Part shown: in pieces, positions 7,159-24,076 of the stretch
How the letters are laid out: every line of letters starts with the position of its first letter
Numbering within the stretch: the stretch's first letter is position 1
Assembly (NCBI RefSeq): GCF_016905445.1
Contig: NZ_JAFEXF010000001.1
Location: 124,001 to 188,000 of the forward strand
DNA: 64,000 nucleotides
Source of the DNA: Streptomyces sp. G44
GTDB taxonomy: Bacteria > Actinomycetota > Actinomycetes > Streptomycetales > Streptomycetaceae
Reading direction: 5' to 3'
Translations under genes and position numbers: made by a program
Notes under the pieces: model-generated
The model's database searches: none
Told to the model about the DNA's origin: nothing
Seen by the model: only the letters and a program-made list of their open reading frames with translations

Positions 7159-7929
7159 TCATCGGACCGGCTGGGAGTGAAGGAGCATGCTGGCCCTCGC
7201 GAGGTCCTCCGGTGTGTCGACCGCGAGACCGTCGTCTATGACAGGGAGCATCCGTACCCCGTGGCCGTGTTCGACGAAGCGCAGCATCTCCACGCCCTCG
7301 GTACGCTCCAACGGCCCCTGCGGGAGGTGCTGGAACAAGCTGAGGGCTGTTCCGGTGAAGCCGTAGAGACCGAGCTGACGTAGGTATCTTGGCCGGTCCC
7401 CGCGCGGGTAGGGGATCGGCTGCCGGGAGAACATCAGGGCGTTGCGCTGAGTATCGACGACGACCTTGACGACGTTGTGGTCCAGGACGGCACCGACGTC
7501 CTGAAGCTCCGTGTACGCGTTCACTGCGAGCGTTCCGGGCACCAGCTGCTCTAGGGCTTCGGAGACAGCGTCGATCGCGGCGGGCGAGATGAACGGCTCG
7601 TCGCCCTGGACGTTGATGTACGCGTCGGCGGGCAGGCGCTCCGCGCACTCCGCGACCCGATCGGTGCCGGTGAGGTGACTTCCGGTGCGCACGCACCCGA
7701 TGCCCAGTTCGTGGCACGTCTCCTCGATGCGCTCGTCATCGGTGGCGACGACCACGCTGTCGAGGCGCTTCGCCTCCAGGCAGCGCTGGTGGACGTGCCA
7801 CAGCAGCGGTTTGCCCCCGAGCTGGGCAAGGGGCTTCCCCGGAAACCGGGATGCTCCCCAACGGCAGGGGATGACGGCGATGTGGTGGCGGTGCGTGGTG
7901 TTCGGTGGTGCGGCTGTGGTGGCGACCAC
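7159..7929 (-). CDS. kdsB: KdsB-family CMP-sugar synthetase (3-deoxy-manno-octulosonate cytidylyltransferase-like)
   Basis: This enzyme type transfers CMP from CTP to an ulosonic acid. Family motifs are clear: IPCRWGASRFPGKPL near the N-terminus (nucleotide-binding loop), VVATDDERI, INVQGDEPFI (metal-binding Asp) and FSRQPIPYPR. I choose GTG at 7929, preceded by GGGAG, over an ATG at 7992 that has no ribosome binding site and would overlap the NUDIX reading frame. About 256 residues, normal for the family. It is the last gene of the minus-strand array, 22 bases after the NUDIX remnant. Gram-positive bacteria do not make lipid A-linked KDO, so here the product is more likely a CMP-activated sugar acid for a secondary metabolite or surface glycan. 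No KDO-8-phosphate synthase is visible in the window. Confidence 0.85.
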   Translation of the reverse strand: MVATTAAPPNTTHRHHIAVIPCRWGASRFPGKPLAQLGGKPLLWHVHQRCLEAKRLDSVVVATDDERIEETCHELGIGCVRTGSHLTGTDRVAECAERLPADAYINVQGDEPFISPAAIDAVSEALEQLVPGTLAVNAYTELQDVGAVLDHNVVKVVVDTQRNALMFSRQPIPYPRGDRPRYLRQLGLYGFTGTALSLFQHLPQGPLERTEGVEMLRFVEHGHGVRMLPVIDDGLAVDTPEDLARASMLLHSQPVR

Positions 7930-7951
7930 GGCGGACTCCCGTCGGTGAGTG

Positions 7952-8068
7952 TCAGGAAAGAGTGAGGCGGGGGAGGAGGGCCAACTTGGCACGGACGGTG
8001 GGCGAGGCGGAGCCCTCGAACGACCGCCACTCGTAGCCGCTGACCTCTTCGGCCTGGAGCGTCACCGC
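7952..8068 (-). pseudogene. Detached 3' end of the NUDIX gene (frameshifted)
   Basis: Read in the frame two bases away from the main NUDIX frame, this stretch encodes VTLQAEEVSGYEWRSF followed by about 22 further residues and a TGA at 7952-7954. It ends only 22 bases before the GTG of the KdsB-like gene, the spacing expected if it is the original end of the NUDIX gene. It has no start of its own. Confidence 0.6.
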
Positions 8069-8517
8069 GTGTGGGACCGCAGAAGGAAGACCCAGCGGAA
8101 GTCCACGTGCTGGTGCGCCGGCTCGCCCTTCGCAGCGTTGGCGGCGATGCCGTGTACGTCGATGTCCAGGGGCACGGTCTCGAATCCCGGGAGGGGGATG
8201 ACGGCGTCGTGAGGGATGCCGGTCTCCTCGAACAGCTCGCGCAGCGCGGCACCGGGAAGGTCCTGGTCGCCCGGCTCGTTGTGACCGCCGGGCACGAGGG
8301 CCTTGCCCGTCGCGTTGTGCTGGATGTGCAACACCCGGCTGCCGCTGTCGATGACGATGGCGCTGCAGGTCACGTGCGTGGGAAACGTCTTGCGGCTCGT
8401 CGGGTCGTCCTCGCCGGTCAGCGCGTCGAAGAGCGCGGCCAGGCCCTCGCGCTCGGACGGGTGGCGGGTGAGGTACGCCTCGGCGGTGGCACGGATGTGG
8501 TCGGCGGACGGCGGCAT
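8062..8517 (-). CDS. NUDIX hydrolase, C-terminus altered by a frameshift
   Basis: Hydrolyses a nucleoside diphosphate linked to another moiety. The 151-residue frame contains the conserved part of the Nudix box, RELFEETGI, preceded by PGGHNEPGD. The frame stops at 8062, shortly after FRWVFLLRSHTR. The sequence that homologues normally carry next (VTLQAEEVSGYEWRSF) continues in another frame down to 7952, so the gene appears to have suffered a two-base insertion in the CACAC run near 8069-8073 (plus-strand GTGTG). The ATG lies 4 bases beyond the stop of the SAH-hydrolase-like gene, suggesting coupled translation. All catalytic residues precede the shift, so a shortened enzyme could be active. 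A sequencing error would also explain it. Confidence 0.75.
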   Translation of the reverse strand: MPPSADHIRATAEAYLTRHPSEREGLAALFDALTGEDDPTSRKTFPTHVTCSAIVIDSGSRVLHIQHNATGKALVPGGHNEPGDQDLPGAALRELFEETGIPHDAVIPLPGFETVPLDIDVHGIAANAAKGEPAHQHVDFRWVFLLRSHTR

Positions 8518-8521
8518 GGGA

Positions 8522-9643
8522 TCACCTGTCGAAGTAGTCGAACCAGATCCTGGCGATGGCCTGGCGGTCGGGGGCGGGCATGTCGTGGAGGCCGGGCTGG
8601 AAGCGGCTCTGACTGAGGGCGGCCGTGGCGGCGAGTATCTCGGCCTGGACGAGATGGATGTAGGTGCCGACGGCGGCGCCGTGCACGAAGTTGACGGCGC
8701 CGCCGTCGGCGAGGACGTAGAAGTAGTGGCCGGTGATCTCGTAACGCGTCAGGTGTTCGCCGACCGGGGTGCGCTGGTACAGCCCGTCGAGGCTGCCGAG
8801 TTCGAGTTCGTCCTCCGAGGACGTCACCGAGGCGACGTACGCCCCGTTGCGCAGGGCGGCGAAGTCGCCTTGGCGCAGGGCGAGGTTGCCGGTGGCGCAC
8901 AGGACGAGTTCCGCGTCTCCGAGCGCGTCCGCCGTCGATGCGCTCGTACGGAAGCCCTGTGCGTGCGCCTGCACTCTCTTGACCGGGTCGGTGTCGTGCA
9001 CGGTGACGCGCAGGTCCTGGGCACGTAGCGTCTGAGCGATGGCTCGGCCGACCTTGCCGAACCCGATGACGCAGGCGTTTCGGCTGGTCAGGATGTCGCC
9101 GCGGGCACGCACCAGCGCGTCGGTGGAGAAGACGATGGACCGGCCCACGAGATGGTCCTCGCAGTCCTTCAGCGGGGAGCGGGCCACCGACACGACGGGA
9201 CAGGGCAGGTGGTCGAGTGCCGCGTACCTCTGGTGTCCGTTCTCGGTGTCCTCGACGACGCCGAGGATGCGGCCGGAGAACTTCTCCACCAGGGTGTCGA
9301 GGCACGGCGCGAAGTAGCCGCCGATGTCCACCAGGATGACGTTCCGGCCGCCGGCCGTGTCCTCCAGATAGTCCAATGCCCTGGTTGAGTCCGCGAACAG
9401 CTCTCGGCTGAGGTCATGGACGGTGAAGGCACGACGGACGGCCTCCAGCGTCGGCTGGTCCACGGACCTGGGCTTGGGCAGGACAGCACCGACCGTGGAC
9501 GTCGCAGCCATCGCGCGGAGGAACGCCGGCCGCTCGGAAAGCAGGTGCGTGATGATCAGGGTGGTGACGCAGTCCCCAGCGGGGAAGCGTGTAGTGATCT
9601 GCCGGAAGAAGGCGTCCAGCCGCGCTTTCTCAGGACTCTCCAC
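8522..9643 (-). CDS. S-adenosylhomocysteine-hydrolase-like NAD-binding protein
   Basis: A GTG start with TAGGAG six bases before it; 373 residues. The centre carries a dinucleotide-binding fold with GFGKVGRAIA (about residues 192-201), matching the NAD-binding loop of SAH hydrolase, followed by a strand ending in an acidic residue (VTVHDTDPVKR). The C-terminal region (SVTSSEDELEL, VNFVHG) is also reminiscent of that family. The protein is 60-100 residues shorter than true SAH hydrolases, and the substrate domain is not convincingly canonical, so it may act on a modified adenosine or nucleoside, or use NAD for a transient oxidation of another substrate. It is the twelfth gene of the array, between the epimerase and the NUDIX hydrolase. 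Confidence 0.7.
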   Translation of the reverse strand: MESPEKARLDAFFRQITTRFPAGDCVTTLIITHLLSERPAFLRAMAATSTVGAVLPKPRSVDQPTLEAVRRAFTVHDLSRELFADSTRALDYLEDTAGGRNVILVDIGGYFAPCLDTLVEKFSGRILGVVEDTENGHQRYAALDHLPCPVVSVARSPLKDCEDHLVGRSIVFSTDALVRARGDILTSRNACVIGFGKVGRAIAQTLRAQDLRVTVHDTDPVKRVQAHAQGFRTSASTADALGDAELVLCATGNLALRQGDFAALRNGAYVASVTSSEDELELGSLDGLYQRTPVGEHLTRYEITGHYFYVLADGGAVNFVHGAAVGTYIHLVQAEILAATAALSQSRFQPGLHDMPAPDRQAIARIWFDYFDR

Positions 9644-9667
9644 TGCAACTCCTACTGGTCCTGCAGC

Positions 9668-10669
9668 TCATGCCGCGCGGCCGAACGCGGCGGACTCGGC
9701 GGTCAGCGCCTGCATCTGGGCCCGCATGCCGTTGTGGAGGTCGACCTGGGGTTGCCAGCCCAGGACCTCGTAGGCGCGGCTGGGGTTAGCGCGGGTGGTG
9801 AGGACGTCGCCGCTGCGCGGGTTCTCCTGGTGAACCTGGATCTCGCGCCCGGCGAGGCTGTTCGCGATGTTGATCACTTCGAGCAGGGAGGCGCTCGAAC
9901 CACCCCCTACGTTGATCACCCCGCTGGCCGTCGGAATGGTGGCCGCGGCGATGGTGGCGGCCACCGCGTCGTCGATGTACGTGAAGTCCCGGCGCTGGTG
10001 GCCGTCCCCGTACAAGCGCAGCGGCTGGCCAGTCAGGGCGGCCGTGAGGGCGCGGTGCGTGAACATGTCGGGGCGCTGCCGGGGGCCGTAGACGGTGAAG
10101 TACCGCAGGGCGACGACGCTGGTGGGGCAGTGGGCCTGGGCGGAGTGTGCGAGGCAGAGCTGCTCCTCGGCGAGTTTCGTTACCGCGTACGGAGAGGCCG
10201 GCTGGGGCCTGTCGGTCTCCACGCTCGCACCGCCGTCGGTGGAGCCGTAGACGCTGGAGGACGAGGCCACCACGAGCCTGGGAGCGCCCATACGGGCGAC
10301 GGCGTCCATGACGCGGTGGGTCGCGAGGACGTTGGAGGCGACGTACTCGCTGAACTTCGGTCCCCAGGAGGGGCGCACCCCAGGGATGCCCGCCAGATGG
10401 AAGACGGCGTTCGCATCGATGAGAAGCGGCTCGATCGCGCAGCTGAGGAGGTCGGCGGTGACGTGCATGTACCCCGGGAGCCCCCGCACGACGGCGAGGT
10501 TCGCCGCGGCCGTGGGGTCGGTGGCCGGGTCGCGTCGGTCGACGCCGACGACGACGGCGCCGGCCTGGACGAGGGCGTGCGCGAGATGGGAGCCGATGAA
10601 GCCGGCGGCGCCGGTCACCACAGCCCGGCGAGGGACGGCGGTGGTCAGGTGGGATGGGTGCTGTGACAC
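9668..10669 (-). CDS. NAD-dependent sugar epimerase/dehydratase (extended SDR)
   Basis: Extended SDR acting on a nucleotide-activated sugar. Visible are the N-terminal NAD loop TGAAGFIGSH (about residues 19-28), the catalytic SSSSVYGS, the YxxxK pair in SPYAVTKLAEE, and the substrate-side RYFTVYGPRQRPDM typical of UDP-glucose 4-epimerase and related enzymes. The start is GTG with GGAG six bases upstream; 333 residues, normal length. In the array it follows the APH-like kinase by 32 bases. It probably tailors a sugar nucleotide used by one of the two glycosyltransferases encoded upstream; the substrate cannot be read from sequence. Confidence 0.88.
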   Translation of the reverse strand: MSQHPSHLTTAVPRRAVVTGAAGFIGSHLAHALVQAGAVVVGVDRRDPATDPTAAANLAVVRGLPGYMHVTADLLSCAIEPLLIDANAVFHLAGIPGVRPSWGPKFSEYVASNVLATHRVMDAVARMGAPRLVVASSSSVYGSTDGGASVETDRPQPASPYAVTKLAEEQLCLAHSAQAHCPTSVVALRYFTVYGPRQRPDMFTHRALTAALTGQPLRLYGDGHQRRDFTYIDDAVAATIAAATIPTASGVINVGGGSSASLLEVINIANSLAGREIQVHQENPRSGDVLTTRANPSRAYEVLGWQPQVDLHNGMRAQMQALTAESAAFGRAA

Positions 10670-10701
10670 GGAGATCTCCAGGAATTCAGGGGAGGGGTGG
10701 T

Positions 10702-11538
10702 TTAGGCGAGGCGGGCCAGAACGGTCCGGCCGTGGGTGCTGAGGGCGAGGTCCTCCTGCTCGTGCCCTCGGACCAGCGCGGTGACGGCCTCGATCGCGCC
10801 GAAGGACTCCAACAGCCGCTGCTCGGTGTCGTTCAGGGGCTCCCCGTACCCGGCGAAGAACGCCGTCCGGAGGTTCGGGGCGGCCTGCCAGCGGCGGAAC
10901 TCGAGCCGGGCGAAGTCACGGATGCGGGCGTCGCGGCGCATGTGCTCGAAGTCGCACAGCCCGAAGTCGTCCCCGAGGAGCCAGTTCCTCGGCTGGTAGT
11001 CGAGGTGGCATACAGCGCTGTCCATAAGCGTGTTCGCCAGGACGTCCGCGTGGTGGCTCAGGCGCTCGCCTTCGATCGTGGACATGAGGCCGGCCCGGCC
11101 TGCGCGGGCGATCCAGTCGCGCAGCCGCTGGGCGAGTTCCGTGCCGACGGCGCCGGTACGCGATACCGAGGTGGCATGGTGCAGGTTGCCCAGCACGCGC
11201 CCGGCCTCGTAGTGCGCCTGCTCCTCCTCGGGCGACCCCGGTGCGACCGTATCCACCCGTACGCCGGGAACCGCGGTGAGCAGCAGGGTGCACGTCCTGT
11301 CCTGCCGGCCCACCACGCGGGGGACGTGGCCGATCAGGTGGGATCCCCAGGCGAGATAGGCGTGCAGCTCGCGGGTGTACCGGCCGCGTTCGCTGTGCTG
11401 CTTGGCGAAGAACTCGTTGCCGTCGGCACTGACCAGGCGCAGGACGCGGGGCGGGAGCATCGGATCGTGCACGACCCGGACCGCTCCGAGCGCGCCGCGA
11501 GCCAGGTTCAGGCGCGGGTCGTCGGACAGCGTGATCAC
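10702..11538 (-). CDS. APH/choline-kinase-fold phosphotransferase
   Basis: Small-molecule kinase of the aminoglycoside phosphotransferase fold. The catalytic loop is HLDYQPRNWLL (the HxDxxxxN pattern) and the metal-binding motif is LCDFEH. GTG at 11538 overlaps the TGA of the histidine phosphatase (GTGA) and has AGGAGG seven bases upstream, so I prefer it to the longer frame. About 278 residues. It probably phosphorylates a pathway intermediate or gives self-protection by phosphorylating the product. A second APH-like gene lies two genes upstream, with the histidine phosphatase between them. Aminoglycoside resistance is possible but less likely in this setting. Confidence 0.8.
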   Translation of the reverse strand: MITLSDDPRLNLARGALGAVRVVHDPMLPPRVLRLVSADGNEFFAKQHSERGRYTRELHAYLAWGSHLIGHVPRVVGRQDRTCTLLLTAVPGVRVDTVAPGSPEEEQAHYEAGRVLGNLHHATSVSRTGAVGTELAQRLRDWIARAGRAGLMSTIEGERLSHHADVLANTLMDSAVCHLDYQPRNWLLGDDFGLCDFEHMRRDARIRDFARLEFRRWQAAPNLRTAFFAGYGEPLNDTEQRLLESFGAIEAVTALVRGHEQEDLALSTHGRTVLARLA

Positions 11539-12191
11539 GACGCAGCCTCCTGACCTAAGGCGGCCAGGTGCTCGGTGTCGTTGTGGCGGTCGAGCATCCA
11601 CCGTCTCTGTCCGAGCCGGTTGAGGTGGTGCTGCCAACGGGTGATGGACCCGTGGGAGACCGTGAATCCGGAAGGGGAACCGAGCGGGATGCCCAGGAGC
11701 AGAGTGTGCGCGACGATCACGGTCTCACCGTGGGCGGCGAACAGGACGCGTTCGCCTTCGTGCTGGTCGATGAGTTCCCGCAAGAAGCGACTGGCTCGCT
11801 CCATGTAGCCGTTCCAGGTGTCGGATCCAGCAGCCCAGGGCTTGTCGGGGTGGGCGTGCGGCCCGCCATCGGCGGTCGTCTTCACCTCGGTCCAGGGCTG
11901 GCCGTCGGCGGCACCATGGACGGGACCATCGAGACGGTTGTCCGTGGATATGGGGAGCCGGAGGGCCTGGCTGATGATCTCGGCGGTCTGGCGCAGGCGG
12001 ATGCGGGGGCCGGTGTACAGGGCGTCGAACGGCTTGTCGCGGTGCTCGGCGGCGAGGCGGAGCGCGGCCCTCTCGACTTGCGCGTACCCGTGGTTGGTCA
12101 GCCCAGTGCAGGTGCGCGGGCCGCCAACCAGGCCGTCGACGTTGCACTGGGCCTCGCCGTGGCGGACGAAGACGAGTTCTGTGGTGATCAT
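11535..12191 (-). CDS. Histidine phosphatase (phosphoglycerate-mutase-like) with a TTA codon
   Basis: Removes a phosphoryl group through a phosphohistidine intermediate. The RHG motif is in LVFVRHGEAQCN (about residues 6-17) and the second catalytic His in FAAHGETV. ATG at 12191 overlaps the TGA of the upstream gene (ATGA) and has GAGG six bases before it; 218 residues. The array context of two kinases and this phosphatase suggests protection and release of a phosphorylated intermediate. A TTA leucine codon (plus-strand 11556-11558) lies seven codons before the stop. In Streptomyces TTA codons need the bldA tRNA, so expression of this gene and of the translationally coupled kinase may be delayed until development. 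Confidence 0.83.
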   Translation of the reverse strand: MITTELVFVRHGEAQCNVDGLVGGPRTCTGLTNHGYAQVERAALRLAAEHRDKPFDALYTGPRIRLRQTAEIISQALRLPISTDNRLDGPVHGAADGQPWTEVKTTADGGPHAHPDKPWAAGSDTWNGYMERASRFLRELIDQHEGERVLFAAHGETVIVAHTLLLGIPLGSPSGFTVSHGSITRWQHHLNRLGQRRWMLDRHNDTEHLAALGQEAAS

Positions 12192-12949
12192 GCGGAACCT
12201 CGCGGGCATGGTTGGGGCGCCCAGCTGTGGCGGTAGCCATTGCGCCCGGCGTACGGGGCGGTCAGGACGGCGTGCAGGGCGAGGAAGTCGTCGAGTCGCT
12301 CGCGATCTGTGGTGCCGAGCCGGGGGTCGTGGCGTTCGACGGCTTCGTTGTAGGCGCGCAGGGCGGAGTCGACGACTGGGGCCGGCAGAGGCCCGTACGT
12401 CAGGACCAGCGTCGCGATCAGCTTCGCCAGGTCGTACCCCATCGGGGCCAGCGTGAGGTCGTCGGTGTCGACCGTGTAGATGTCGCCGGCCTCGGTGATG
12501 ATGAAGTTCCGGGGGTTGCTGTCCTTGTAGAAGGCCGTAGGCCCCTCGGCGGTCTTCTCCAGCAGCCTCAGCATCGCGTGGAGGGCGACCCGGTCCGGCA
12601 GGTACCCCTGCTCCAGCCTTCTTCGGAGGGCGGTTTGCCGGGGACCGATGTAGTCGCCGAACGCGACGCCATCCCGGAAATGGTGCGGCGTGTTCAAAGA
12701 GGCCGGCCGGAGATCGGTGGTCCAGGCGGTTCCGTGGGCGTCGCCGAGCAGCCCGGCCAGGGTCAGCAGGTCCTCGGTCCGGGCCGGGCGGCCGTCGATC
12801 CACTCGTACGTCAGGCTCGTCGGCCCGACCACGGTCAGCGCCGGCAGCCGCAGCGCCCGTGCATGCTCGGCGAGCCAGGCGTGATGGCGGGCGGCCGCGG
12901 CCACCTGGCGGGGGGTCTCGTAGTGCTTGGTGAACTGGCGAACGCTCAC
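12188..12949 (-). CDS. Divergent APH-fold kinase-like protein
   Basis: About 253 residues, started from GTG at 12949, which overlaps the methyltransferase stop (GTGA) and follows a GGGGGAGGA ribosome binding site. The kinase core can be traced: LTYEWIDGRP in the N-lobe/linker, the catalytic loop FYKDSNPRNFIIT (Asp and Asn kept, the usual His replaced by Lys), and DTDD where DFE/DFD is expected. The substitutions leave activity uncertain; it may be a specialised kinase or a pseudokinase partner. It is translationally coupled on both sides, to the methyltransferase upstream and the histidine phosphatase downstream. Confidence 0.7.
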   Translation of the reverse strand: MSVRQFTKHYETPRQVAAAARHHAWLAEHARALRLPALTVVGPTSLTYEWIDGRPARTEDLLTLAGLLGDAHGTAWTTDLRPASLNTPHHFRDGVAFGDYIGPRQTALRRRLEQGYLPDRVALHAMLRLLEKTAEGPTAFYKDSNPRNFIITEAGDIYTVDTDDLTLAPMGYDLAKLIATLVLTYGPLPAPVVDSALRAYNEAVERHDPRLGTTDRERLDDFLALHAVLTAPYAGRNGYRHSWAPQPCPRGSA

Positions 12950-13791
12950 GACCGTCCTCCCCCTGACTGGGCCACGACGAAGGTGACGAGCGACTTGGTG
13001 GTGAGGGGCTGGTCCGGCAGGAACTCGTGCAGGGCCGCCGCGAGCGCGCCCGCATTGCCGTACAGGCCGGGGGCGAGGTCGTACTTCGGGTTGGTGGCCA
13101 GGTACTCGGCGACGTGTTCGTGGCCGTCGAAGGTGAAACTGTGCTCCTCGTGCTCCACGGCGAGTACGTCTAGCGACACGGCGGCCAAGTCGGCGAGGTT
13201 GCCGCTGTGCGCCGAGAAGTACAGGCTCTCGTGCTGCTCGGCTCGAGGGTCGAGGCCGGCGGCAGCGACCAGCTGGTCCATCTCGTGGTAGCTGTCGAGC
13301 CCCTTCGTGACAAGCACGGCCAGGCCGCCGGGAGCGAGCGCCCGGTCGACCTCTGCGACGACCGCCTGCGGGCGCGTTGAGTGGTAGAGGCAGAACGCGG
13401 CGACGACGACGTCGCATGCCCCGGCGGGCACCGGGAGATGGTGGAAGTCGCCCTGGAGGAAGCTCACGGGGAGGCCGGGCAACCACTGGGCACGCTTGCG
13501 GGCCTGTTCGATCAGGGCCGGCGCGGCGTCGAGGCCGACGACGCGCCGGGGACGGAGTTCCTGGGCGACGGTCAGGCTGCTCGTGCCGCGACCGCAGCCG
13601 AGGTCCAGGGCCAGGCCGAGACGGTCCGGTCGCTCGTGGTGGTTGCGCACCAGCTGGACGATCGTGTCCGGTACCGGGCGCCCGGAGGTCTTCGCACGCA
13701 TCAGGGCGTTGGACCGGCCGGCCAGCCGAGAGGCGTGCCCGTACAGCTCAGCCTGCCGCGCGGGGTCCAGGAAAGGGTTGGTGCCGCTCAT
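12946..13791 (-). CDS. SAM-dependent class I methyltransferase
   Basis: Class I Rossmann methyltransferase. Motif I is LALDLGCGRGTSSL (about residues 60-73), followed by VVGLDAAPALIEQAR and the post-II strand CDVVVAAFCLYH; 281 residues. ATG at 13791 has GGGGAGGG upstream. The substrate (O, N or C atom) cannot be deduced. It lies between the P-loop kinase (31 bases upstream) and the APH-like kinase (4-base overlap). A SAH-hydrolase-like protein in the same array could clear the product SAH, although that protein is itself divergent. Confidence 0.85.
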   Translation of the reverse strand: MSGTNPFLDPARQAELYGHASRLAGRSNALMRAKTSGRPVPDTIVQLVRNHHERPDRLGLALDLGCGRGTSSLTVAQELRPRRVVGLDAAPALIEQARKRAQWLPGLPVSFLQGDFHHLPVPAGACDVVVAAFCLYHSTRPQAVVAEVDRALAPGGLAVLVTKGLDSYHEMDQLVAAAGLDPRAEQHESLYFSAHSGNLADLAAVSLDVLAVEHEEHSFTFDGHEHVAEYLATNPKYDLAPGLYGNAGALAAALHEFLPDQPLTTKSLVTFVVAQSGGGRS

Positions 13792-13822
13792 GCCGCACCC
13801 TCCCCTCGGGGGCGCGGAGTGC

Positions 13823-14335
13823 TCAGATGTGCTCGGCGGCGACCTTCCGCAGCCAGCGGCGCGTCTGCCGCCGGTTGGACAGCGGCACTACGTCGGCACG
13901 GCCCGAGGCGAATTCCTCGATCTTCGTCATGACCCGCGGGCGCATCTTGCGGCGGTACGTCGCCACGTACTTGATCACGCCCCAGTGGATGCGGTTGTGC
14001 ACCCCGTTGCCCTTGTGCCCGGCCCCGTGCCGGATCTGCCGGGAGAAGATCCCGTACAGTGCGGCCACGGTCGAGACGTCCATCAGGACCACCGTGTCGC
14101 AGGCTTCGAGCCGGATCTGCAGTGTTGAGTTGTAGTTCCCGTCGATCACCCACTTCGGCTGCGCGACGAGGTCCTGCTGCAGGGCGGCGAACTTCTCCAT
14201 GGGCAGCGCGTTCCACTCGTCGTCGTAGAACGCGGTGTCCAGGTGCGTGACCGGGGCGCCGAGAATCCTGCCCAGCTCGCGGGCCAGGTACGACTTGCCG
14301 CTTCCTCCGCAGCCGACGATGGCGACCTTCTTCAT
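13823..14335 (-). CDS. P-loop kinase of the adenylate-kinase/topology-modulation type
   Basis: Begins MKKVAIVGCGGSGKSYLARE, with Walker A GCGGSGKS at about residues 8-15, and reaches 170 residues; the start has GGAG six bases upstream. THLDTAFYDDEW and WVIDGNY are typical of the small kinases annotated as topology modulation or adenylate-kinase-like proteins. Basic residues near the C-terminus fit a lid. It probably phosphorylates a nucleoside monophosphate or a related small molecule, which suits a nucleotide-based pathway. It sits 31 bases before the methyltransferase and 96 bases after the glycosyltransferase, the largest internal gap in this part of the array. Confidence 0.8.
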   Translation of the reverse strand: MKKVAIVGCGGSGKSYLARELGRILGAPVTHLDTAFYDDEWNALPMEKFAALQQDLVAQPKWVIDGNYNSTLQIRLEACDTVVLMDVSTVAALYGIFSRQIRHGAGHKGNGVHNRIHWGVIKYVATYRRKMRPRVMTKIEEFASGRADVVPLSNRRQTRRWLRKVAAEHI

Positions 14336-14431
14336 GGTGCTCCAGCGTAGAGGCGTTCGGGTGCCCGGTCGGACCGTCCGGTCGGACACGTTCGGATGAT
14401 CCAGACGCCATGGCCTGGGTGGTCAGCTCCA

Positions 14432-15484
14432 TCACGCCGCTCCCCGCTCCACAGCTACGGGGCTGGCGGCCGTGTCCAGGACGGCTTCCAGTACGTCGAT
14501 CTGCCGACTCAGGCGGAACAGGTCCAGGCGGTCCAGGCAGGCCGCGATCAGGTCCGCGTGCTGCTGGGTGCCGGCGATCCGCTGGAGGTGCGTCAGGCGC
14601 TCGATCACCTCGCTGCTGGAGCTGACGATCAGCTCTTTGGGCACGAAGCGGTCGGCGTGCAGGATGTCGGCAGGGGCGAGTGGGAGGCAGCCGGCGAGCA
14701 CGGCCTCGAAGATCCGCTGCGTCATCTGTCCGACGGCGGCGTACCGCTCCGGCAGCATCAGCACGGTTGCCAGGGACCTGTCGTACGCGGCGTGGACCGC
14801 CTCGAAGGGGAGCCTGCCGAGGAACCGGACGTGCGGCCAGCGGCTGGTCTTCGTCCACTTGCCCCCGACCAGGTGATCGAAGTGGGCTGCGGCTGGCGCG
14901 AAAAAGTGGTCGAAGTGTTCGTCGCGGTCGTACTGGTTGCCGACGTATCCGAGGACGAGGTCCCGGGGCTTCTTGGCGAGCGCGATCGGGTCGGCCTCGG
15001 CGAGCAGACGGTCGTCGACCGGGAAGAGCAGGCGGTGGGCGCCCGGATTCGGTTGGAGAGCGGCTTCGCAGATGGCGGTCTGGCGGACGCGCCGCCACAT
15101 GCTGTCAGGCCGGAGCTGGCGGTCCTTGTCCCAGATCACGGTCGGCGTCTTCCTCCGCACGGTGTACCGGGTGACCAGTTCGGCCTGGCGGTGCAGGTCG
15201 CAGGTGTGCCCCTCGGTGCCGCACGGGGTGGTGTTGCGTCCTTCGATCGCCCAGCGCCACTCCAGGAACAGGACGTCGATGTCCGGACTGCCGCTGTGGA
15301 AGGTGTAGGCGTTGCCCAGGTCGTCGCCGGCCTCGATCAGGTCCCGGTTGGCCTGCAGGAAGACAATCTCGTGTCCGCGGCCGAGTAGGGCGTCGATCAG
15401 GGGTCGGCGGTGGCTGCGGCCCCCGTCCGGGGTGTCGGTGATTCCGTTGCCGAGGAAGCCCCAGAAGCTGTATCCGATCTTCAC
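14432..15484 (-). CDS. Glycosyltransferase-like protein (CgeB/GT-B type)
   Basis: A 350-residue cytosolic protein with GT-B character: an N-terminal half with FWGFLGNGI and RGHEIVFLQANRDL (sugar-acceptor Rossmann domain), and a C-terminal half with VRFLGRLPFEAVHAAY, then QRIFEAVLAGCLPL and a conserved acidic residue, the donor-binding arrangement of spore-coat CgeB and related transferases. GTG at 15484 overlaps the carbamoyltransferase stop (GTGA); a GTG four codons earlier (15496) is the alternative. The acceptor and donor are unknown. It could attach the epimerase product to the nucleotide-derived core. Confidence 0.72.
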   Translation of the reverse strand: MKIGYSFWGFLGNGITDTPDGGRSHRRPLIDALLGRGHEIVFLQANRDLIEAGDDLGNAYTFHSGSPDIDVLFLEWRWAIEGRNTTPCGTEGHTCDLHRQAELVTRYTVRRKTPTVIWDKDRQLRPDSMWRRVRQTAICEAALQPNPGAHRLLFPVDDRLLAEADPIALAKKPRDLVLGYVGNQYDRDEHFDHFFAPAAAHFDHLVGGKWTKTSRWPHVRFLGRLPFEAVHAAYDRSLATVLMLPERYAAVGQMTQRIFEAVLAGCLPLAPADILHADRFVPKELIVSSSSEVIERLTHLQRIAGTQQHADLIAACLDRLDLFRLSRQIDVLEAVLDTAASPVAVERGAA

Positions 15485-17208
15485 TTGGTGATCCACCGGC
15501 CTTCCAGCAGCAGGGCGTCCAGTCCGGAGTTGGCCAGGCAGTCCAGAGCCATCTCCGGTGTCCCGCAGATCGGCTTGCCCTTGACGTTGAGCGAGGTGTT
15601 GATCAGGACCGGCACCCCGGTGCGGCGGGCGAAGGCGCTGAGCACGTCGTGCATGAACGGGTTCTGCGACCGGGTGACGGTCTGGAGGCGGGAGGTGCCG
15701 TTGGCGTGCACGATGGCCGGCACGCGTTCGCTTGCCTTATCGGTTACGCCGGACGCCATCGACATGTACGGCGCCTCTTGGCCGAGGGTGAAGAACTCTG
15801 CGGCGCGTTCGGCCAGGACCATGGGGGCGAAGGGGCGGAACGGCTCCCGGAACTTCACGGTGGCGTTCAGACGCTCGACGACCCCGGGCTCCAGCGGGGA
15901 GGCGAGGATCGAGCGGTGCCCCAGGGCGCGGGGGCCCGCCTCGACCCGGCCCTGGAAGAGCCCCACGATCATGCCGTGGGCGAGCTGGTCGGCGAGGAAC
16001 TCGGCGGTTTCGACGCCCAGCTTCTTCTGCTGGAGCCCCTGCCAGGGCGTGAGGTCCAGGGCCTGGTCCTGGTATGACGGGCCGAGGTAGCAGGCACGTG
16101 CGACGCCGGACACAGGCCGCTGGCTGCGGCTGCTGGTGTGCACGGCGATGGCGGCCCCGATCGCGGTGCCAGCGTCGCCAGGGGCGGGCGGGACGAAGAC
16201 CTCGTCGAAGACGCCGTCCTCGATGATCCGGCCGATGCTCACGCAGTTCGTGGCGACTCCACCGCCGACACACAGACGGCGGGATCCGGTGATCATCCGC
16301 GCCCGGCGGGCCAGATGCAGCATCACCTGCTCGGTGCGCTCCTGGAGCGCCGCGGCCAGATCTCGGTGGACGGCTTGGAGCGGCTCGCTCGGGTGACGCT
16401 CGGGGCACGTCTCGGCGATGAAATGACGGGAGGTCCGCGGGTAGCCCGAGGTCAGCACGCGTGGCGGGAAGTACGCGGGGTCGACCACGAACCCCGTGGG
16501 TGTGGTGCGCACAGCCCGGGCGAAGAGGTGCCGGAACCGCTGCGGGTCGCCGAGGGCGGCGAGCGCCATCACGGTGCCCTCCTCGTCACCTCGGCGCCAT
16601 CCGAGGTGCTCGGTGACCGCGCCGTACACGTAGCCCAGGGAGGCGGGGTCCTTGATCGCCTGGAGGGTGTGGGTGGAGGGGTGGAGCGCGTCGTGCCCGT
16701 GGGCGATGGTCGTGGTCTGCCGCTCGCCGAGGCTGTCGACGACGAGCACGGCGGACTCGTTCCACCCAGAGGCGGCGAAGGCAGTCAGCTGGTGGGCGCG
16801 GTGGTGCAGGACGGGGGAGACGCAGGCGGAGGGGAACCGCCGGCCCAGGGATCGGATGCGCAGTTGGGTTCGCAGCGCCACCCTGGCGAAGCCGCGAGCC
16901 CTCGGCAGCGCCCGATTACGCGTCGTCGGCGACAGCGCCAAGCGCAGGGCCGCCGGCGACTCGGCAAGGTAGTGGGCGGGCTGGAAGTTGTAGGCGACGG
17001 CGTCGACGTCGGCTGCGGTGAGCCCGGCCTCGTCCAGCAGCCACTCAACGGCGTGGCGGGGGTAGTCCTTGGTGTGCTTCTGCTGGGAGAGCCGTTCCTC
17101 CTCGACGAAGCCGATCATTTCGCCGTCCACCAGCAGGGCGGCGGAGGAGTCGTGCGTGTAGGAGCACAGACCGAGGATGACCGAGGGCGCGCGGCCCATG
17201 GCGGCCAT
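15481..17208 (-). CDS. O-carbamoyltransferase, NodU/CmcH family
   Basis: Transfers a carbamoyl group from carbamoyl phosphate to a hydroxyl through carbamoyladenylate. Signatures in order: YTHDSSAALL (N-terminal metal/phosphate loop), HHRAHQLTAF (catalytic histidines), VGGGVATNCV, and in the C-terminal domain RALGHRSILA and LINTSLNVKGKPI. About 575 residues, normal for antibiotic-type enzymes such as CmcH and NovN. ATG at 17208 overlaps the previous stop (TGATG) by one base. In streptomycetes this family mostly decorates secondary metabolites, which supports reading the array as a natural-product cluster. Confidence 0.92.
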   Translation of the reverse strand: MAAMGRAPSVILGLCSYTHDSSAALLVDGEMIGFVEEERLSQQKHTKDYPRHAVEWLLDEAGLTAADVDAVAYNFQPAHYLAESPAALRLALSPTTRNRALPRARGFARVALRTQLRIRSLGRRFPSACVSPVLHHRAHQLTAFAASGWNESAVLVVDSLGERQTTTIAHGHDALHPSTHTLQAIKDPASLGYVYGAVTEHLGWRRGDEEGTVMALAALGDPQRFRHLFARAVRTTPTGFVVDPAYFPPRVLTSGYPRTSRHFIAETCPERHPSEPLQAVHRDLAAALQERTEQVMLHLARRARMITGSRRLCVGGGVATNCVSIGRIIEDGVFDEVFVPPAPGDAGTAIGAAIAVHTSSRSQRPVSGVARACYLGPSYQDQALDLTPWQGLQQKKLGVETAEFLADQLAHGMIVGLFQGRVEAGPRALGHRSILASPLEPGVVERLNATVKFREPFRPFAPMVLAERAAEFFTLGQEAPYMSMASGVTDKASERVPAIVHANGTSRLQTVTRSQNPFMHDVLSAFARRTGVPVLINTSLNVKGKPICGTPEMALDCLANSGLDALLLEGRWITK

Positions 17209-18164
17209 CACCGCGTCCCTGCCGTCTCGCGCGCGGTGGAGGTGCGGGCACGGTGGTTCAGCTCGCCGTACCAGGCGATCAGCGCCTCGCCCAGCGGTCC
17301 GTCGATCTTGTCGGCGACCCGCCACGCCTGCTCAGGTAGGCCGTCCTTCCACAGGCGGTAGCTGCGCAGTGTCTCGGCCATCGTGTCCCAGCCCGAGTGG
17401 CCGGTGACGTCCCGGGCCTCGACCTGGTCGAGGAGGCCATCGAAGCCTCGCCACGGCGTGGTGAGGTCCGGCATGACCCTGCTCGCGGTGACCGAGCTGA
17501 GCTCTTCGGCCTGGTCGAGGTGCTTCTCGTAGATGTGCAGGGATCCGACGTGGTGGTGGAACTCGCCCAGCTCGGCGCCGAGCCAGCCCGCGACCAGCTC
17601 GTGCAGCACGGTGTAGAAGAACAGGTCGTACGGCATACCGATCCACACGTCCTGACCACGCATCGTGGTCGACATGTGCAGGCGGCCGGCGCGCAGGTAG
17701 AAGCGGAAGCCCAGCGTGCAGGGCACGTCCTTGTGCCCGGCGGCGTCCTGGGCCGGATCGTAGAGCTGGATCAGAGCCCGGCGAGAGTCGGGGTCTTCCT
17801 TGAGGATCTGGACGACGCGGCTCAGCTGGTCCACGTTCCCGGCCCACTTCCGCATCCTCGGGCCGTACGCGCCCCGCAGGACACCGTCGTCGGCGTACTG
17901 TCGCAGGCGCGCGTTGTAATCGAAAATCCACGGGGCGTCCGAGCCGGAGAGGTGCCATACGGTCTCCGCCACGGCGAACGCGGGATTGATGACGCGCGCC
18001 GGCGGCGCGTACAGCAGGCGGGCCCGCGGCTGGGTCAGCCGCATGTGGACGTCGAGAACCTCACGGGTCGCCATGCCGCGAGGGCTGACCCTCTCGCCGC
18101 TCTTGGCCAGGGCGACGGCGCCGACGAAGAGTTCGGCGACGCTGTCGGCGGTCAGGTGTGTCAT
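17208..18164 (-). CDS. Thymidylate-synthase-fold enzyme, predicted cytidylate-specific
   Basis: 318 residues of the thymidylate synthase fold, which alkylates C5 of a pyrimidine nucleotide using methylene-tetrahydrofolate. Present are the active-site Cys149 in DVPCTLGFRF, the active-site Glu67 in AETVWHLSGS, the phosphate-binding region RGQDVWIGMPYD and HIY (sugar contact). The usual PCH is PCT. The residue 31 positions after the Cys, Asn177 in E. coli ThyA, is Asp180 here. The same Asn-to-Asp change marks dCMP hydroxymethylase and makes such enzymes prefer cytosine. I infer C5 methylation or hydroxymethylation of a CMP-type substrate, as in MilA. ATG at 18164 overlaps the upstream stop (ATGA). 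Confidence 0.85.
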   Translation of the reverse strand: MTHLTADSVAELFVGAVALAKSGERVSPRGMATREVLDVHMRLTQPRARLLYAPPARVINPAFAVAETVWHLSGSDAPWIFDYNARLRQYADDGVLRGAYGPRMRKWAGNVDQLSRVVQILKEDPDSRRALIQLYDPAQDAAGHKDVPCTLGFRFYLRAGRLHMSTTMRGQDVWIGMPYDLFFYTVLHELVAGWLGAELGEFHHHVGSLHIYEKHLDQAEELSSVTASRVMPDLTTPWRGFDGLLDQVEARDVTGHSGWDTMAETLRSYRLWKDGLPEQAWRVADKIDGPLGEALIAWYGELNHRARTSTARETAGTR

Positions 18165-20014
18165 TGGGCAGGTACTCCTTCGCCCTGCGGCAGTCCGGAA
18201 CCGTTGCCGCGGGCATCGTGGTGGACGTGGCGGGAGTGCAGGTCATGGCCGTCGGCCCGGCGGGTGATGAGGTGTGCGACCTGGGAGGCGCTGTCGCCGC
18301 GCCACCGGCACACGGCGTCCGACGCCGCCCGGTCGACAGGCGGGTATGGACCGCGCAGTGCGATGAGGGCATCGGCGACGTCAGCGGCGGTGCTGCACCG
18401 CCGCGCGAGGCCGTGGTCGGACAGTCCGAGCGTGCGCTCGCCGGGCGAACCAAGTTCGAGCACCGGAACGCCCACCAGCGCGGCTTCGATGCCGCACGTC
18501 GAATAGACGCTCACCAGGGCGTCGGCACCGGCGAGGCAGCCGCGAGCGCCGACCCGGGGATCGGCCACGGCCACGAGCGGCCGACCGTCCCGTTCGAGCA
18601 GGGAAGCGAAGACGTCGACGCTCTGTGCCGGGTGCGGCGCGATGACGAGGCCCCAGCCGCCGCCGGCCTGCCACAGACCGTCCAGGAGGAGGTCGGCCTG
18701 GGCCTTGAGCCGGTCAGGTCCGAAGGGCTGGCAGGCCCACACCGCGATACGGGCAGGGCCTTGCCGTGGGCTGGGCGACAGCTGGTTCTCCAGGTAGCGC
18801 CGCTGGGCTTCGCGGCTGAGGCCGGCGAGCGCGTCGAAGCGGGGCTGGCCCAGGACGTGGACCTCGGCAGCAGGGTGGCGCACCCACGCCTTCGCGAGAG
18901 GGAGATCCCGTTCACCCATGACGACGATGTCGCGGCTGTGCAGCGCGGGCCATGCGACCGACTCCGCCGTCCAGGCGCCGTGCTGGACGTGCACCGTATT
19001 CGCGCCATGGCGCTCTGCCACATGGACGGCAAGTGCACCCAGCGGGCTGGTGTCGTTGCTGACCAGAACGGTATGCGGTCGAGCTGCGGCGAGGACGCCA
19101 TCCAGCCATGTCTCCGCCCGAACCACGGAGCGCCACGAGGGCTGAGTGCACCCGCCGCTTGTCTCCAGCAGTACGGACACGAGGCGGAGCAGCCGGTCCA
19201 GGTGAACCTCGTGCTTGTCGACCCGAACGACGCGGCCGTCGTCCGGCAGCCTCAGACCGTCCACGGCGCCGGAGAGGTCGAAGAGACCGGTCGGCGGCGA
19301 GCACAGGTTCACGCCCGCGACTCCTGAAGCCGGGCACCGCTCCGCCGGGTCGGTCGCCAGGTCAACCACGAGGCTCGGGTGTCCGTTCCTGGCCAGCTCC
19401 TCCAGTACCGGCAGCAGAGTGGCCGCGTGACGGGAGGACCACGAGAGCGCCACCACCTCACTCAGCGGCAGCTCCGAGGGTGCCGGGCCCGGCACCGCTG
19501 CGGCCGCCTGGAGAGGAGGGAGGGTGCGTAACTGCGCGGAGCGGAGGGGGTTATGAGGGGCCGCAGCACCGAGCAGATAGGCGATGCCCGACCAGGTGAC
19601 GGTGTACGCCCGGTACTCGCGGGAGCTGCTCGACCGCATCGCGACGAGTCCTTCGTACGGCGCGAGTCTCAGCGGACCTGGGGCCTTCGCGAACGGCTCC
19701 CAGGCGCTGAGCGCCGCCAGCTTGCGTACAACCTGCGCCACCAGGCGCCGCGCCGGCACGTGCTGGACGTACAACCACCCCGCGCCACCCGGCGTCCTCG
19801 CGAGGTCAGCGCCGTACGCTTCAAGGGCCTCCATCACCTGGTCGACCCGTGCTTGCGCTTCCCCCGGGTCGAATGGCAGGGCCTCCAATTCGGACGTGGC
19901 TACCCGGTCGGCTTTCATGGTCGCGAGCGCGCCCTCGCCGACCAGCGCCCAGAGGGGCTTGCCTTCGGACTCGGCGCGGGCGATGCCGAGGGCGCTGCGC
20001 CCCGTCGGCTTCAC
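18161..20014 (-). CDS. GT-B transferase with capsule-synthesis-type C-terminus
   Basis: 617 residues from GTG at 20014, which overlaps the HAD stop (GTGA). The N-terminal ~250 residues are unassigned. The C-terminal ~350 resemble capsule polysaccharide and CDP-glycerol/KDO-transferase-type GT-B proteins: a strand-loop TVLVSNDTSPLGAL, then VHVQHGAWTAES, VMGERDLPLAKAW, VHVLGQPRFDAL and a late donor-binding SVYSTCGIEAALVG. Such enzymes use CMP-, CDP- or UDP-sugars, so a CMP-sugar made by the KdsB-like enzyme of the same array is an attractive donor. That pairing is inference. No membrane segment is seen. Confidence 0.68.
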   Translation of the reverse strand: MKPTGRSALGIARAESEGKPLWALVGEGALATMKADRVATSELEALPFDPGEAQARVDQVMEALEAYGADLARTPGGAGWLYVQHVPARRLVAQVVRKLAALSAWEPFAKAPGPLRLAPYEGLVAMRSSSSREYRAYTVTWSGIAYLLGAAAPHNPLRSAQLRTLPPLQAAAAVPGPAPSELPLSEVVALSWSSRHAATLLPVLEELARNGHPSLVVDLATDPAERCPASGVAGVNLCSPPTGLFDLSGAVDGLRLPDDGRVVRVDKHEVHLDRLLRLVSVLLETSGGCTQPSWRSVVRAETWLDGVLAAARPHTVLVSNDTSPLGALAVHVAERHGANTVHVQHGAWTAESVAWPALHSRDIVVMGERDLPLAKAWVRHPAAEVHVLGQPRFDALAGLSREAQRRYLENQLSPSPRQGPARIAVWACQPFGPDRLKAQADLLLDGLWQAGGGWGLVIAPHPAQSVDVFASLLERDGRPLVAVADPRVGARGCLAGADALVSVYSTCGIEAALVGVPVLELGSPGERTLGLSDHGLARRCSTAADVADALIALRGPYPPVDRAASDAVCRWRGDSASQVAHLITRRADGHDLHSRHVHHDARGNGSGLPQGEGVPAQ

Positions 20015-20712
20015 ACCAGACTCCCTTCGAGGAACGGCCCGGGGTCCATGAGCCGCAGCAGGTCCTTCGGCGATTCGGCGACGATGGGGGCCGGAGGGCT
20101 CGGGGTGCCGTAGCCCCAGCCCGCGTGCACGTACGGGACGCCCGCACGGCGAGCCGCCTCCTGGTCGACCGCCATGTCCCCGACGTACAACGCCTCGGCC
20201 GGGTCGGCGCCGAGGTCGATCAGGGCGAGCAGGATCGGGTCCGGTGCGGGTTTGCCTCGTCCCAGCCCGTTCGGAGTGCGTACCGTGGCGAACGGAACAC
20301 CGAGCTGGGCCAGCAGAGGAGTGGCTCGGTCCAGCGGCTTGGACGTGACGATCCCCAGCCGCCACTGGGCAGCGGCGAAGGCGTGCAGGACTTCTGCGAC
20401 CCCGTCGAACTGTCGGGCGAGGGGAGAGGCGGCCGTTGACGCCTTCGAGTAGGTCTGGTGAATGGGCTCGGCATCAGCGAGCCCGAGCTGCTTCATGATG
20501 TCGCCGAAGGGCCGGCCAAGGTGACGCTCGTACTCCTCGAACGGCACGTCGAGGCCGTGGTCTTCACGGACCTGGCGCCACGCGCTTTCCATGACTGGGC
20601 GGGTGTCGACGAGCACGCCGTCCAGGTCGAGCAGCAGCACACGTACGGCTTCGGTGTCGAAGCCCAGCCTCGTTCCGCCGGAGGGCGGTGAGGGCGTAAG
20701 CCGGGATGGCAT
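20011..20712 (-). CDS. HAD-superfamily phosphatase
   Basis: First gene of the array. About 233 residues with the HAD motifs in order: LLLDLDGVLVDT (nucleophile and acid/base Asp, about residues 27-38), a cap domain, VTSKP (motif II), GKPAPDP (motif III Lys) and YVGDMAVDQEAA (motif IV acidic pair). ATG at 20712 lies seven bases after GGAG; a GTG one codon earlier is possible. It belongs to the phosphoglycolate-phosphatase-like branch. It could dephosphorylate a sugar-acid phosphate before CMP activation, the KdsC role, but its sequence does not fix the substrate. The only gene beyond it is the anti-sigma-type ATPase, 23 bases away on the same strand. Confidence 0.87.
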   Translation of the reverse strand: MPSRLTPSPPSGGTRLGFDTEAVRVLLLDLDGVLVDTRPVMESAWRQVREDHGLDVPFEEYERHLGRPFGDIMKQLGLADAEPIHQTYSKASTAASPLARQFDGVAEVLHAFAAAQWRLGIVTSKPLDRATPLLAQLGVPFATVRTPNGLGRGKPAPDPILLALIDLGADPAEALYVGDMAVDQEAARRAGVPYVHAGWGYGTPSPPAPIVAESPKDLLRLMDPGPFLEGSLV

Positions 20713-20735
20713 CACGGGTCTCCAAGGGGAGGTGG

Positions 20736-21227
20736 TCAGGAGGTGATGGGCGTCTCGGGGCGCCTCACGAGGGCGATCACCCTCTTGCCGCGTCCGTCTT
20801 CCTTGGGGCAGGCAGTCCAGGCGTCAGCCGTCGCCGACACGAGGTGCAGGCCCCGTCCACTGGTGGCGTAGAGCGAGGCGATCTGAGGCACCGGTGGCTC
20901 CGGGGAGTTGTCTTCGACCTCGATCCCTACAACGCCGGCCTGAAGGGCGAGCGTCAGTGTGATTTCATCGACGGGCTCGCCGTCCGTTCTGGGCAGAAGG
21001 ACCAGGTCGGCGGCGTCGGTAGTTCGGCCATGCCGCTCGGCGTTGGTGGTGAGCTCGCTGACGATCAGCACGGCCTGGTCCAGCAGGTCTTCCACCCCCC
21101 ACGCCGTCAGCGCCTCGCGGGTGAAGGACCGTGCTCTGCCCGGAGCCCTGTCATTGGCGGCGAGCGTCAGGCTCTTCTGGTGTTCAGGGGCGCTGATTAC
21201 GCTGTCCAGGCTCTCGATTCGGTCCAT
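20736..21227 (-). CDS. Anti-sigma-factor-type ATP-binding protein (HATPase_c_2)
   Basis: 163 residues with the compact GHKL fold of RsbW/SpoIIAB-type proteins found in large numbers in Streptomyces. Visible are the N-box VSELTTNAERHG, the G1-type EVEDNSPEPP and the late GRGLHLVSATADAW. ATG at 21227 has GAAGG six bases before it. Such proteins either bind sigma or anti-sigma antagonist factors or act as partners of XRE regulators. It lies immediately upstream of the biosynthetic array on the same strand and divergent from the XRE/TPR gene, so it may belong to the control layer of the cluster. Confidence 0.82.
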   Translation of the reverse strand: MDRIESLDSVISAPEHQKSLTLAANDRAPGRARSFTREALTAWGVEDLLDQAVLIVSELTTNAERHGRTTDAADLVLLPRTDGEPVDEITLTLALQAGVVGIEVEDNSPEPPVPQIASLYATSGRGLHLVSATADAWTACPKEDGRGKRVIALVRRPETPITS

Positions 21228-23519: not shown

Positions 23520-24076
23520 CTCGGGGCATCCTTCGGAACCGAGACTGGCGGCCCGGAGGGACATGGCCACGTGAGCGGGCGCCAAGGGGGGCTGTCGCGC
23601 AGGGTCGTACCGCCAGGCACTCATCACTCGGTGCCGCCGGCGGTGAGGGCGGCGGAGGCACCTGGTGGAGTCGGCTGCTCACCGCGGATCAGCAACAGAT
23701 GGGCGCCGGCTCGGTCAGCTGACTGCGCCGTTCGGCCGCTATGGCCTTGGGGCCTAGGTGCGACGAGGTGGGAAGGCGACCCCATAGGGCTGAGTGGCCA
23801 TGTGGGCATCGAGCATGCCCACGAACGGCGCATGGCTGGAGGAGCCACGCTCCATGTAGACGCCGGTCAGTGTCAGCTCGGCACGAGGCATGCCTCAGCC
23901 GATCCATTCCTGGCAGTCGTGGCTCCGCGGACCTGGTGTGGGCAGCCCACGTCGCTGGCCTGTTCCAGCGAGGGCTCGCCACCCACCTCGTCGGGACGAC
24001 CGCTATCGGTACGACGGGCTTGTCTTATTCACCAACTGCGATTGCTGACCAGCGGCCCGCCAAACAGGGGAATAGT
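23520..24076. other. Gene-free stretch between TrmO and the STAND NTPase gene
   Basis: About 560 bases with no frame supported by start, ribosome binding site and protein-like composition on either strand. Composition falls toward lower G+C near the right end (for example around 24020-24076), marking the transition into the accessory island. No direct repeat that could be an attachment site was recognised. Confidence 0.4.

Follow-up and report, generated by a model that had tools for sequence, protein, structure and literature searches.

A fourteen-gene operon of Streptomyces sp. G44 that may build a sugar-decorated, carbamoylated molecule on a hydroxymethylated cytosine nucleotide

We find that a 64,000-nt stretch of the genome of Streptomyces sp. 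G44 (contig NZ_JAFEXF010000001.1, positions 124,001-188,000 of the forward strand; below, the window) holds an array of 14 genes, all on the minus strand and running from 20715 down to 7159. They are transcribed in the order HAD, GT1, TS, CARB, GT2, DTM (the P-loop kinase), MT, APH1, HP, APH2, EPI, SAHH-like, NUDIX and KdsB, with intergenic spacings of -22 to +42 bases, the sole exception being the NUDIX-KdsB junction, which measures 69 bases with the GTG at 7992 taken as the KdsB start. The GC content at third codon positions of the operon genes is 0.83-0.93. A preliminary description of this DNA, made from the letters alone, had listed the same 14 genes; all lie where it placed them, family searches match its assignments, and its statement that the array lacks a polyketide synthase, a non-ribosomal peptide synthetase or a core for ribosomally synthesised and post-translationally modified peptides is supported. 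The genes are given here in order of transcription, with the E-values of family and structure matches and, for most, the number of 80 related loci (defined below) at which they were found.

20011..20715, minus strand: HAD phosphatase, first gene of the operon (PF13419 3.6e-28; 47/80 loci)
18161..20014, minus strand: GT1, probable GT-B glycosyltransferase of 617 amino acids, with one TTA codon (TIGR04396 4.5e-6, below the cut-off; 48/80 loci)
17208..18164, minus strand: TS, predicted (deoxy)cytidylate 5-hydroxymethylase of the thymidylate synthase (TS) fold (PF00303 3.1e-31; best PDB match MilA, 5b6d, 1.8e-39)
15481..17208, minus strand: CARB, O-carbamoyltransferase of the NodU/TobZ/NovN family (PF16861 2.4e-63; best PDB match 9s2t, 2e-85; motif GPRALGHRS)
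14432..15496, minus strand: GT2, core GT-B glycosyltransferase, proposed to target the 5-hydroxymethyl group (PF13524 4e-8; 79/80 loci)
13823..14389, minus strand: DTM, FlaR-like P-loop kinase (NF005994 2.8e-45, below the model's cut-off; 75/80 loci)
12946..13791, minus strand: MT, S-adenosylmethionine-dependent methyltransferase (PF13649 1.6e-21; 76/80 loci)
12188..12949, minus strand: APH1, first APH-fold kinase (PF01636 5.3e-6; 74/80 loci)
11535..12209, minus strand: HP, histidine phosphatase, with one TTA codon (PF00300 3.6e-29; 61/80 loci)
10702..11538, minus strand: APH2, second APH-fold kinase (PF01636 3.1e-13; 60/80 loci)
9668..10669, minus strand: EPI, UDP-glucuronate 4-epimerase-like SDR enzyme (PF01370 7.9e-49; MoeE5, 6kv9, 1.4e-114; signatures SSSVYG and FTVYGPRQR)
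8522..9643, minus strand: SAHH-like NAD-dependent enzyme (PF00670 1e-16; SAHH structures up to 5.7e-19; 36/80 loci)
8062..8517, minus strand: NUDIX hydrolase (PF00293 2.6e-11; 31/80 loci)
7159..7992, minus strand: KdsB-like CMP-ulosonate synthetase, start codon uncertain (PF02348 9.1e-46; best PDB match the KdsB/KpsU-type 1gq9, 1.2e-48; 40/80 loci)

The array recurs in other species. A scan of species genomes for relatives of TS yielded 104, and the best 80 of these 104 were compared as loci; the counts refer to matches at 1e-6 encoded on the same strand as TS, with TS at 80/80 by construction. The gene set is a seven-gene core (TS 80, CARB 79, GT2 79, MT 76, EPI 76, DTM 75, APH1 74), a frequent HP-APH2 pair (61 and 60) and additions mainly in Streptomyces, namely HAD (47), GT1 (48), KdsB (40), the SAHH-like gene (36) and NUDIX (31), which most Streptomyces clusters carry. 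Among these additions the SAHH-like and NUDIX genes are dispensable, since both are missing from several loci (e.g., L034, L065, L070, L077 and L099). The clusters are found in Streptomyces, Nonomuraea, Micromonospora, Nocardia and other actinobacteria, with EPI standing before TS in most distant clades and after APH2 in Streptomyces. A TS orthologue (identity of at least 63%) is present in 23/295 Streptomyces genomes, the window's own genome counted. The GT2 profile finds 24/295, two of which (G054 and G241) hold fragments only, and the remaining 22/22 have the TS orthologue; phylum-wide, GT2 is scarce (2/396 genomes, including the window's own). As gene order is preserved across other species and a TS orthologue accompanies each clear GT2 match in these genomes, the array goes beyond chance, and the neighbourhood comparison shows it linked elsewhere rather than scattered and unlinked, the outcome that the preliminary description had named as speaking against it. 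For the other core genes, pairwise identity tracks that of TS (r 0.92-0.98, species descent not controlled for).

Individual loci show variations on this set. Two distinct copies of the cluster (L065 and L077) occur in Streptomyces tanashiensis JCM 4086, with TS 90% and 82% identical to that of the window. Three clusters (L060, L095 and L105) end after CARB/GT2 or after TS, are followed by unrelated genes, and are apparently broken. In the non-typical clusters L118, L125 and L138 a radical SAM gene (f86; PF04055 3.3e-17) stands between GT2 and DTM, and its NCBIfam matches include the cytosylglucuronate decarboxylase BlsE (3.4e-11), with other radical SAM families scoring higher. Immediately upstream of HAD, three Streptomyces loci (L093, L096 and L098) encode an 863-amino-acid protein with a TauD-type dioxygenase domain. 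Seven loci with a more distant TS (34-42% identity, L053-L059) were considered as the same cluster and set aside as other clusters, the family profiles at 1e-5 having given just MT in L054 and APH2 in L056, both weak.

The base on which the operon would work is indicated by TS. The closest solved relative of the window enzyme is MilA (5b6d, 1.8e-39), the best ordinary thymidylate synthase reaching 5.5e-24; MilA is the cytidine monophosphate (CMP) 5-hydroxymethylase of mildiomycin. We surveyed 93 TS sequences from 103 loci, some genomes being counted twice, and the aspartate of the cytosine position (D180 in the window, Asp186 in MilA) is found in 92/92 readable sequences. The window enzyme retains C149, D180, H210 and Y212, and carries R128 and G170. 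According to the available part of PMC5175136, Lys133 and Ala176 form the ribose-substrate pair of MilA and BcmA, Arg with Ser is the deoxyribose type, and a MilA A176S/K133R double mutant is without CMP activity. The pair Lys133 and Ala176 is not present in the surveyed sequences, where the first position is Arg in 93/93 and the second is Gly in 59, Ser in 33 and a gap in one. By the scheme in that part of PMC5175136 the 33 relatives with Ser look like deoxycytidine monophosphate (dCMP) enzymes, and for the window enzyme, with Arg and Gly, dCMP would be as likely a substrate as CMP, since the ribose signature of MilA is absent. Thus, the TS-fold enzyme acting on cytidylate that the preliminary description proposed stands with respect to a cytosine nucleotide, and is weakened with respect to cytidine in particular, as the ribose pair is replaced and 2'-deoxycytidine is as likely.

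CARB is nearest to the enzymes of novobiocin (NovN; 9s2t, 2e-85), geldanamycin (GdmN) and tobramycin (TobZ) biosynthesis, and its active-site motif, GPRALG[N/H/A]RS, is found in 100/104 proteins, the other four being without a match. The phage 5-hydroxymethylcytosine carbamoyltransferase reads GPRALCNTT as printed in PMC8670742, the accessible part of which ranks the motif positions as most informative and singles out 421 and 423 as different; in which direction they differ is our own reading. The CARB family does not have the phage-enzyme motif as printed there. Carbamoylation of the 5-hydroxymethyl group itself, which we first considered from the same part of that paper, was demoted by this motif count. 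A sugar hydroxyl would be the likelier carbamoyl acceptor on account of the TobZ-type motif, and the "carbamoylated cytidine" of the preliminary description is better read in this way.

Which sugar this could be is suggested by EPI. Against solved structures the EPI family profile gives MoeE5 (6kv9, 1.4e-114) and the B. cereus type 6zl6 (6.3e-101), with the next, unrelated subgroup at 1.9e-68. In UDP-glucuronate 4-epimerases the Ser128 position is Ser (Glu in decarboxylases) and Arg185 grips the carboxylate of UDP-galacturonate, as described in the available parts of PMC7984243 and PMC12338863, and in a hand alignment to these published positions EPI keeps both the Ser and the Arg. The SSSVYG signature is present in 61/64 and GP[RG]QR in 57/64 of the called EPI proteins, the remainder being cut or unmatched. 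Judged by sequence, the epimerase groups with the UDP-glucuronate 4-epimerases, of which MoeE5 is one. For GT2, the sole glycosyltransferase among the solved structures matched by the family profile is T4 beta-glucosyltransferase (BGT), at an E-value of 0.022 and in the C-terminal domain only; BGT puts glucose on 5-hydroxymethylcytosine in DNA. The predicted GT2 model has the GT-B fold (pLDDT 87.2), and BGT takes ranks 3-5 among its Foldseek matches, with a Z-score of 22.6 that is tied with the 22.8 of BshA. This hints at, without proving, an action of GT2 on 5-hydroxymethylcytosine, and the sugar decoration claimed in the preliminary description finds support. Searches for GT2 relatives gave none in phages at 1e-2 and none in plasmids at 1e-3.

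A second sugar is possible in Streptomyces. GT1 has no match in Pfam and one in NCBIfam, TIGR04396 (surface carbohydrate biosynthesis), which lies far below the cut-off; its predicted model is GT-B-like but of low confidence (pLDDT 69), and the fold matches are to generic GT-B enzymes. KdsB is found in 40/48 loci with GT1 and in 0/32 without it (Fisher 7e-15), where 0/32 gives an upper bound on the contrast as several of the loci without GT1 end early (e.g., L124, L126, L127 and L138). This confinement of KdsB to GT1 loci suggests that KdsB feeds GT1.

Two further genes lie upstream of the operon:

20736..21227, minus strand: HATPase_c_2 protein, between the operon and the regulator (PF13581 3.5e-8; synteny in L031-L034)
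21570..22958, plus strand: NsdA-family TPR regulator, divergent from the operon (NF053720 3.6e-119, above the cut-off)

The HATPase_c_2 gene is found in 20/80 loci only and is kept in the closest relatives. In 67/80 loci an NsdA-family protein is encoded no more than 7 kb upstream of the core's first gene, and 56 of these have it on the opposite strand, whereas 0/60 random 7-kb pieces of Streptomyces genomes encode one; the profile was built from the same loci and the control is confined to Streptomyces. Beside the NsdA-family gene, five loci (L103, L111, L112, L117 and L118) carry a gene resembling 2H phosphoesterases and 2'-5' RNA ligases.

At the level of sequence, the gene content, the linkage, the cytosine-type TS site, the glucuronate-epimerase signature and the TobZ-type motif are established. 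From these we infer what all the substrates and acceptors are, how the steps follow one another, how the operon is regulated, and what its role and product are. We suggest, tentatively and with a confidence that falls a little short of even, that the operon's product is a small molecule that has a 5-hydroxymethylcytosine nucleotide at its core, bears a hexuronate and is carbamoylated, methylated and phosphorylated. In this scheme TS would hydroxymethylate C5 of dCMP or CMP, the epimerase would convert UDP-glucuronate to UDP-galacturonate, and GT2 would attach the uronic acid at the 5-CH2OH so formed, in the way that T4 beta-glucosyltransferase glucosylates DNA. The carbamoyltransferase and the methyltransferase would then modify the sugar, and the P-loop kinase, the APH kinases, the histidine phosphatase and HAD would set the phosphorylation state. 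In Streptomyces, KdsB may furthermore make a CMP derivative of a 2-keto-3-deoxy-type acid, which GT1 would attach as a second sugar, while the SAHH-like and NUDIX enzymes would provide optional tailoring and the NsdA-family regulator would control the operon.

Several points weigh against this reading. The assignment of EPI to UDP-glucuronate is sequence-based only, and the operon holds no other uronate-handling or ulosonate-forming enzyme beyond EPI and KdsB. GT2 matches BGT only weakly in sequence, and its model is fitted equally by BshA and by other GT-B enzymes. Residue 170 of TS is split by clade (Gly or Ser) and R128 is unlike MilA, so that the sugar of the nucleotide may be ribose or deoxyribose. 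The identities of HAD and KdsB track TS poorly (r 0.53 and 0.66), the identity correlations carry no control for species descent, and the matches of MT, EPI, APH and HAD at 1e-6 may include paralogues. An NsdA-family protein is also encoded within 20 kb in 3/7 loci with unrelated TS genes, which weakens the case that the regulator is special to the cluster.

Alternatively, the product could be a nucleoside antibiotic that is dephosphorylated, exported and toxic, the kinase/phosphatase pairs serving as self-protection. The MilA-like enzyme comes from an antibiotic pathway, the nearest relatives of CARB are NovN, GdmN and TobZ, and the spread of the TS orthologue across Streptomyces genomes is patchy; in the window both GT1 and HP hold a TTA codon, and that of GT1 is present in 25/43 Streptomyces-titled loci compared with 13/287 control genes. 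Even so, we consider an antibiotic unlikely, though it is the alternative that survives best. A crude hydropathy count reveals no polytopic membrane protein inside the core span of any of the 80 loci and just 7 among 305 flanking genes, against 26 among 287 control genes, and no base-releasing MilB-type hydrolase gene was recognised in the operon. A dedicated exporter is not a conserved part of the cluster, and as membrane transporters are rare in the flanks, a role in signalling or within the cytoplasm has the same plausibility as one as an antibiotic; the preliminary description had likewise named an antibiotic or a signalling molecule.

The presence of KdsB, together with the weak surface-carbohydrate match of GT1 and the fact that NodU-type carbamoyltransferases work on glycans (from an NCBIfam match), could instead point to a cell-surface glycan pathway, in which a polymer would be decorated by way of a CMP-activated acidic sugar, the epimerase and both glycosyltransferases, and a special nucleotide donor would come from the TS-like enzyme. 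Such a pathway is improbable in our judgement: no lipid-carrier, flippase or export gene was recognised in the operon, the flanks are poor in membrane proteins, and neither KdsB nor GT1 belongs to the wider family, while no locus is without the cytosine-type TS, the gene with which the loci were fetched.

A bolder form of the small-molecule reading, which we offer as a long shot, would see in the operon a version, on the chromosome of actinobacteria, of the T4 hydroxymethylcytosine pathway, one whose substrates are free deoxycytidine nucleotides. Once hydroxymethylated, dCMP would be coupled to a carbamoylated galacturonate, giving an internal signal that is read or controlled by the neighbouring NsdA-family protein and times development.

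Least probable of all, and in our view very much so, is DNA or RNA modification or chemical defence by way of a hypermodified (deoxy)cytidine triphosphate, as in T4 or the phage 5-carbamoyloxymethylcytosine systems: it would fit the dCMP-type residues (Arg, Ser) of the 33 relatives, the P-loop kinase in the core and the phage TS-carbamoyltransferase pairs that modify cytosine (shown on 5hmdCTP and 5hmCTP in the accessible part of PMC8670742), whereas the CARB motif is not the phage motif printed there, the phage relatives of TS and CARB are remote (<60% identity in all records), GT2 has none, and PADLOC, run on 10/14 proteins (those from GT1 to EPI), matched MT alone, to mad2 at 4.1e-21 through a generic methyltransferase domain. 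With this PADLOC result a defence system was rejected as a candidate. A phage origin was rejected as well; the same ten proteins gave strong PHROGs matches for TS (8.4e-58), CARB (3e-103) and EPI (2.1e-63), but the phage relatives retrieved by tblastn all lie below 60% identity, with none for GT2 at 1e-2.

The surroundings of the operon hold other genes that we mention for completeness. About 6 kb from it, at 27152-32590 on the plus strand, a 1812-amino-acid protein with sacsin-type and NOV_C domains gives a full-length match to TmtA in PADLOC (E-value 0, 1736 bits) and is probably encoded by a defence gene. Adjoining it, at 24077-27079 on the minus strand, is a frame of 1000 amino acids for which Pfam and PADLOC gave no match, and which lies in an AT-rich dip (56% GC at 24001-26000). 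Further away are a GH38 alpha-mannosidase (55890-58922, plus strand) and a glutamate-cysteine ligase family 2 protein (48588-49745, minus strand).

In agreement with the preliminary description, which knew of no matching cluster, we found none with such a gene combination in literature text searches, among the titles and abstracts listed; a collection of characterised clusters was not compared, and a known product is possible. The available part of PMC13118837 likewise holds nothing on such a cluster. We rate the operon as a nucleotide-based biosynthetic cluster with an unreported combination of genes, for which the comparison provides a defined seven-gene core and a testable question, namely CMP or dCMP.

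Parts of the combination resemble known systems. In bacimethrin biosynthesis, compared at BcmA, this enzyme is likewise a TS-fold enzyme that makes 5-hydroxymethylated cytidylate, but according to the available part of PMC5175136 it has the Lys/Ala ribose pair, which the operon TS does not. As in mildiomycin biosynthesis, compared at MilA and MilB, the operon has a MilA-like TS-fold enzyme with the cytosine-type Asp, but it is without a recognised MilB-like hydrolase or the Lys133/Ala176 pair, and it carries KdsB and the genes of the carbamoyl and uronate steps in addition. The phage 5-hydroxymethylcytosine carbamoyltransferase system found by MetaGPA also has a TS with an Asp177-type residue adjoining a carbamoyltransferase, yet, as far as the accessible part of PMC8670742 describes it, its CARB motif is different, and the operon core has glycosyltransferases and an epimerase. 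With T4, which has a dCMP hydroxymethylase and BGT, the operon shares a cytosine-type TS beside a small GT-B enzyme, for which BGT gives the best, though weak, match in sequence (E 0.022); unlike in T4, the neighbouring genes suggest a uronic acid donor, and the operon is chromosomal and has no known DNA target. The closest parallel to its epimerase family, MoeE5, belongs to the uronate unit of moenomycin A. The moenomycin pathway has a carbamoyltransferase, and the operon too holds a carbamoyltransferase and a methyltransferase; it differs in lacking prenyl-phosphoglycerate lipid genes and in having a nucleotide-modifying enzyme instead. If our reading is true, the NsdA-family neighbour would link a small molecule with a family of regulators of differentiation, and two kits known apart, the phage-type kit for hydroxymethylation and glycosylation of cytosine and the uronate-carbamoyl kit of moenomycin, would be united in one cluster.

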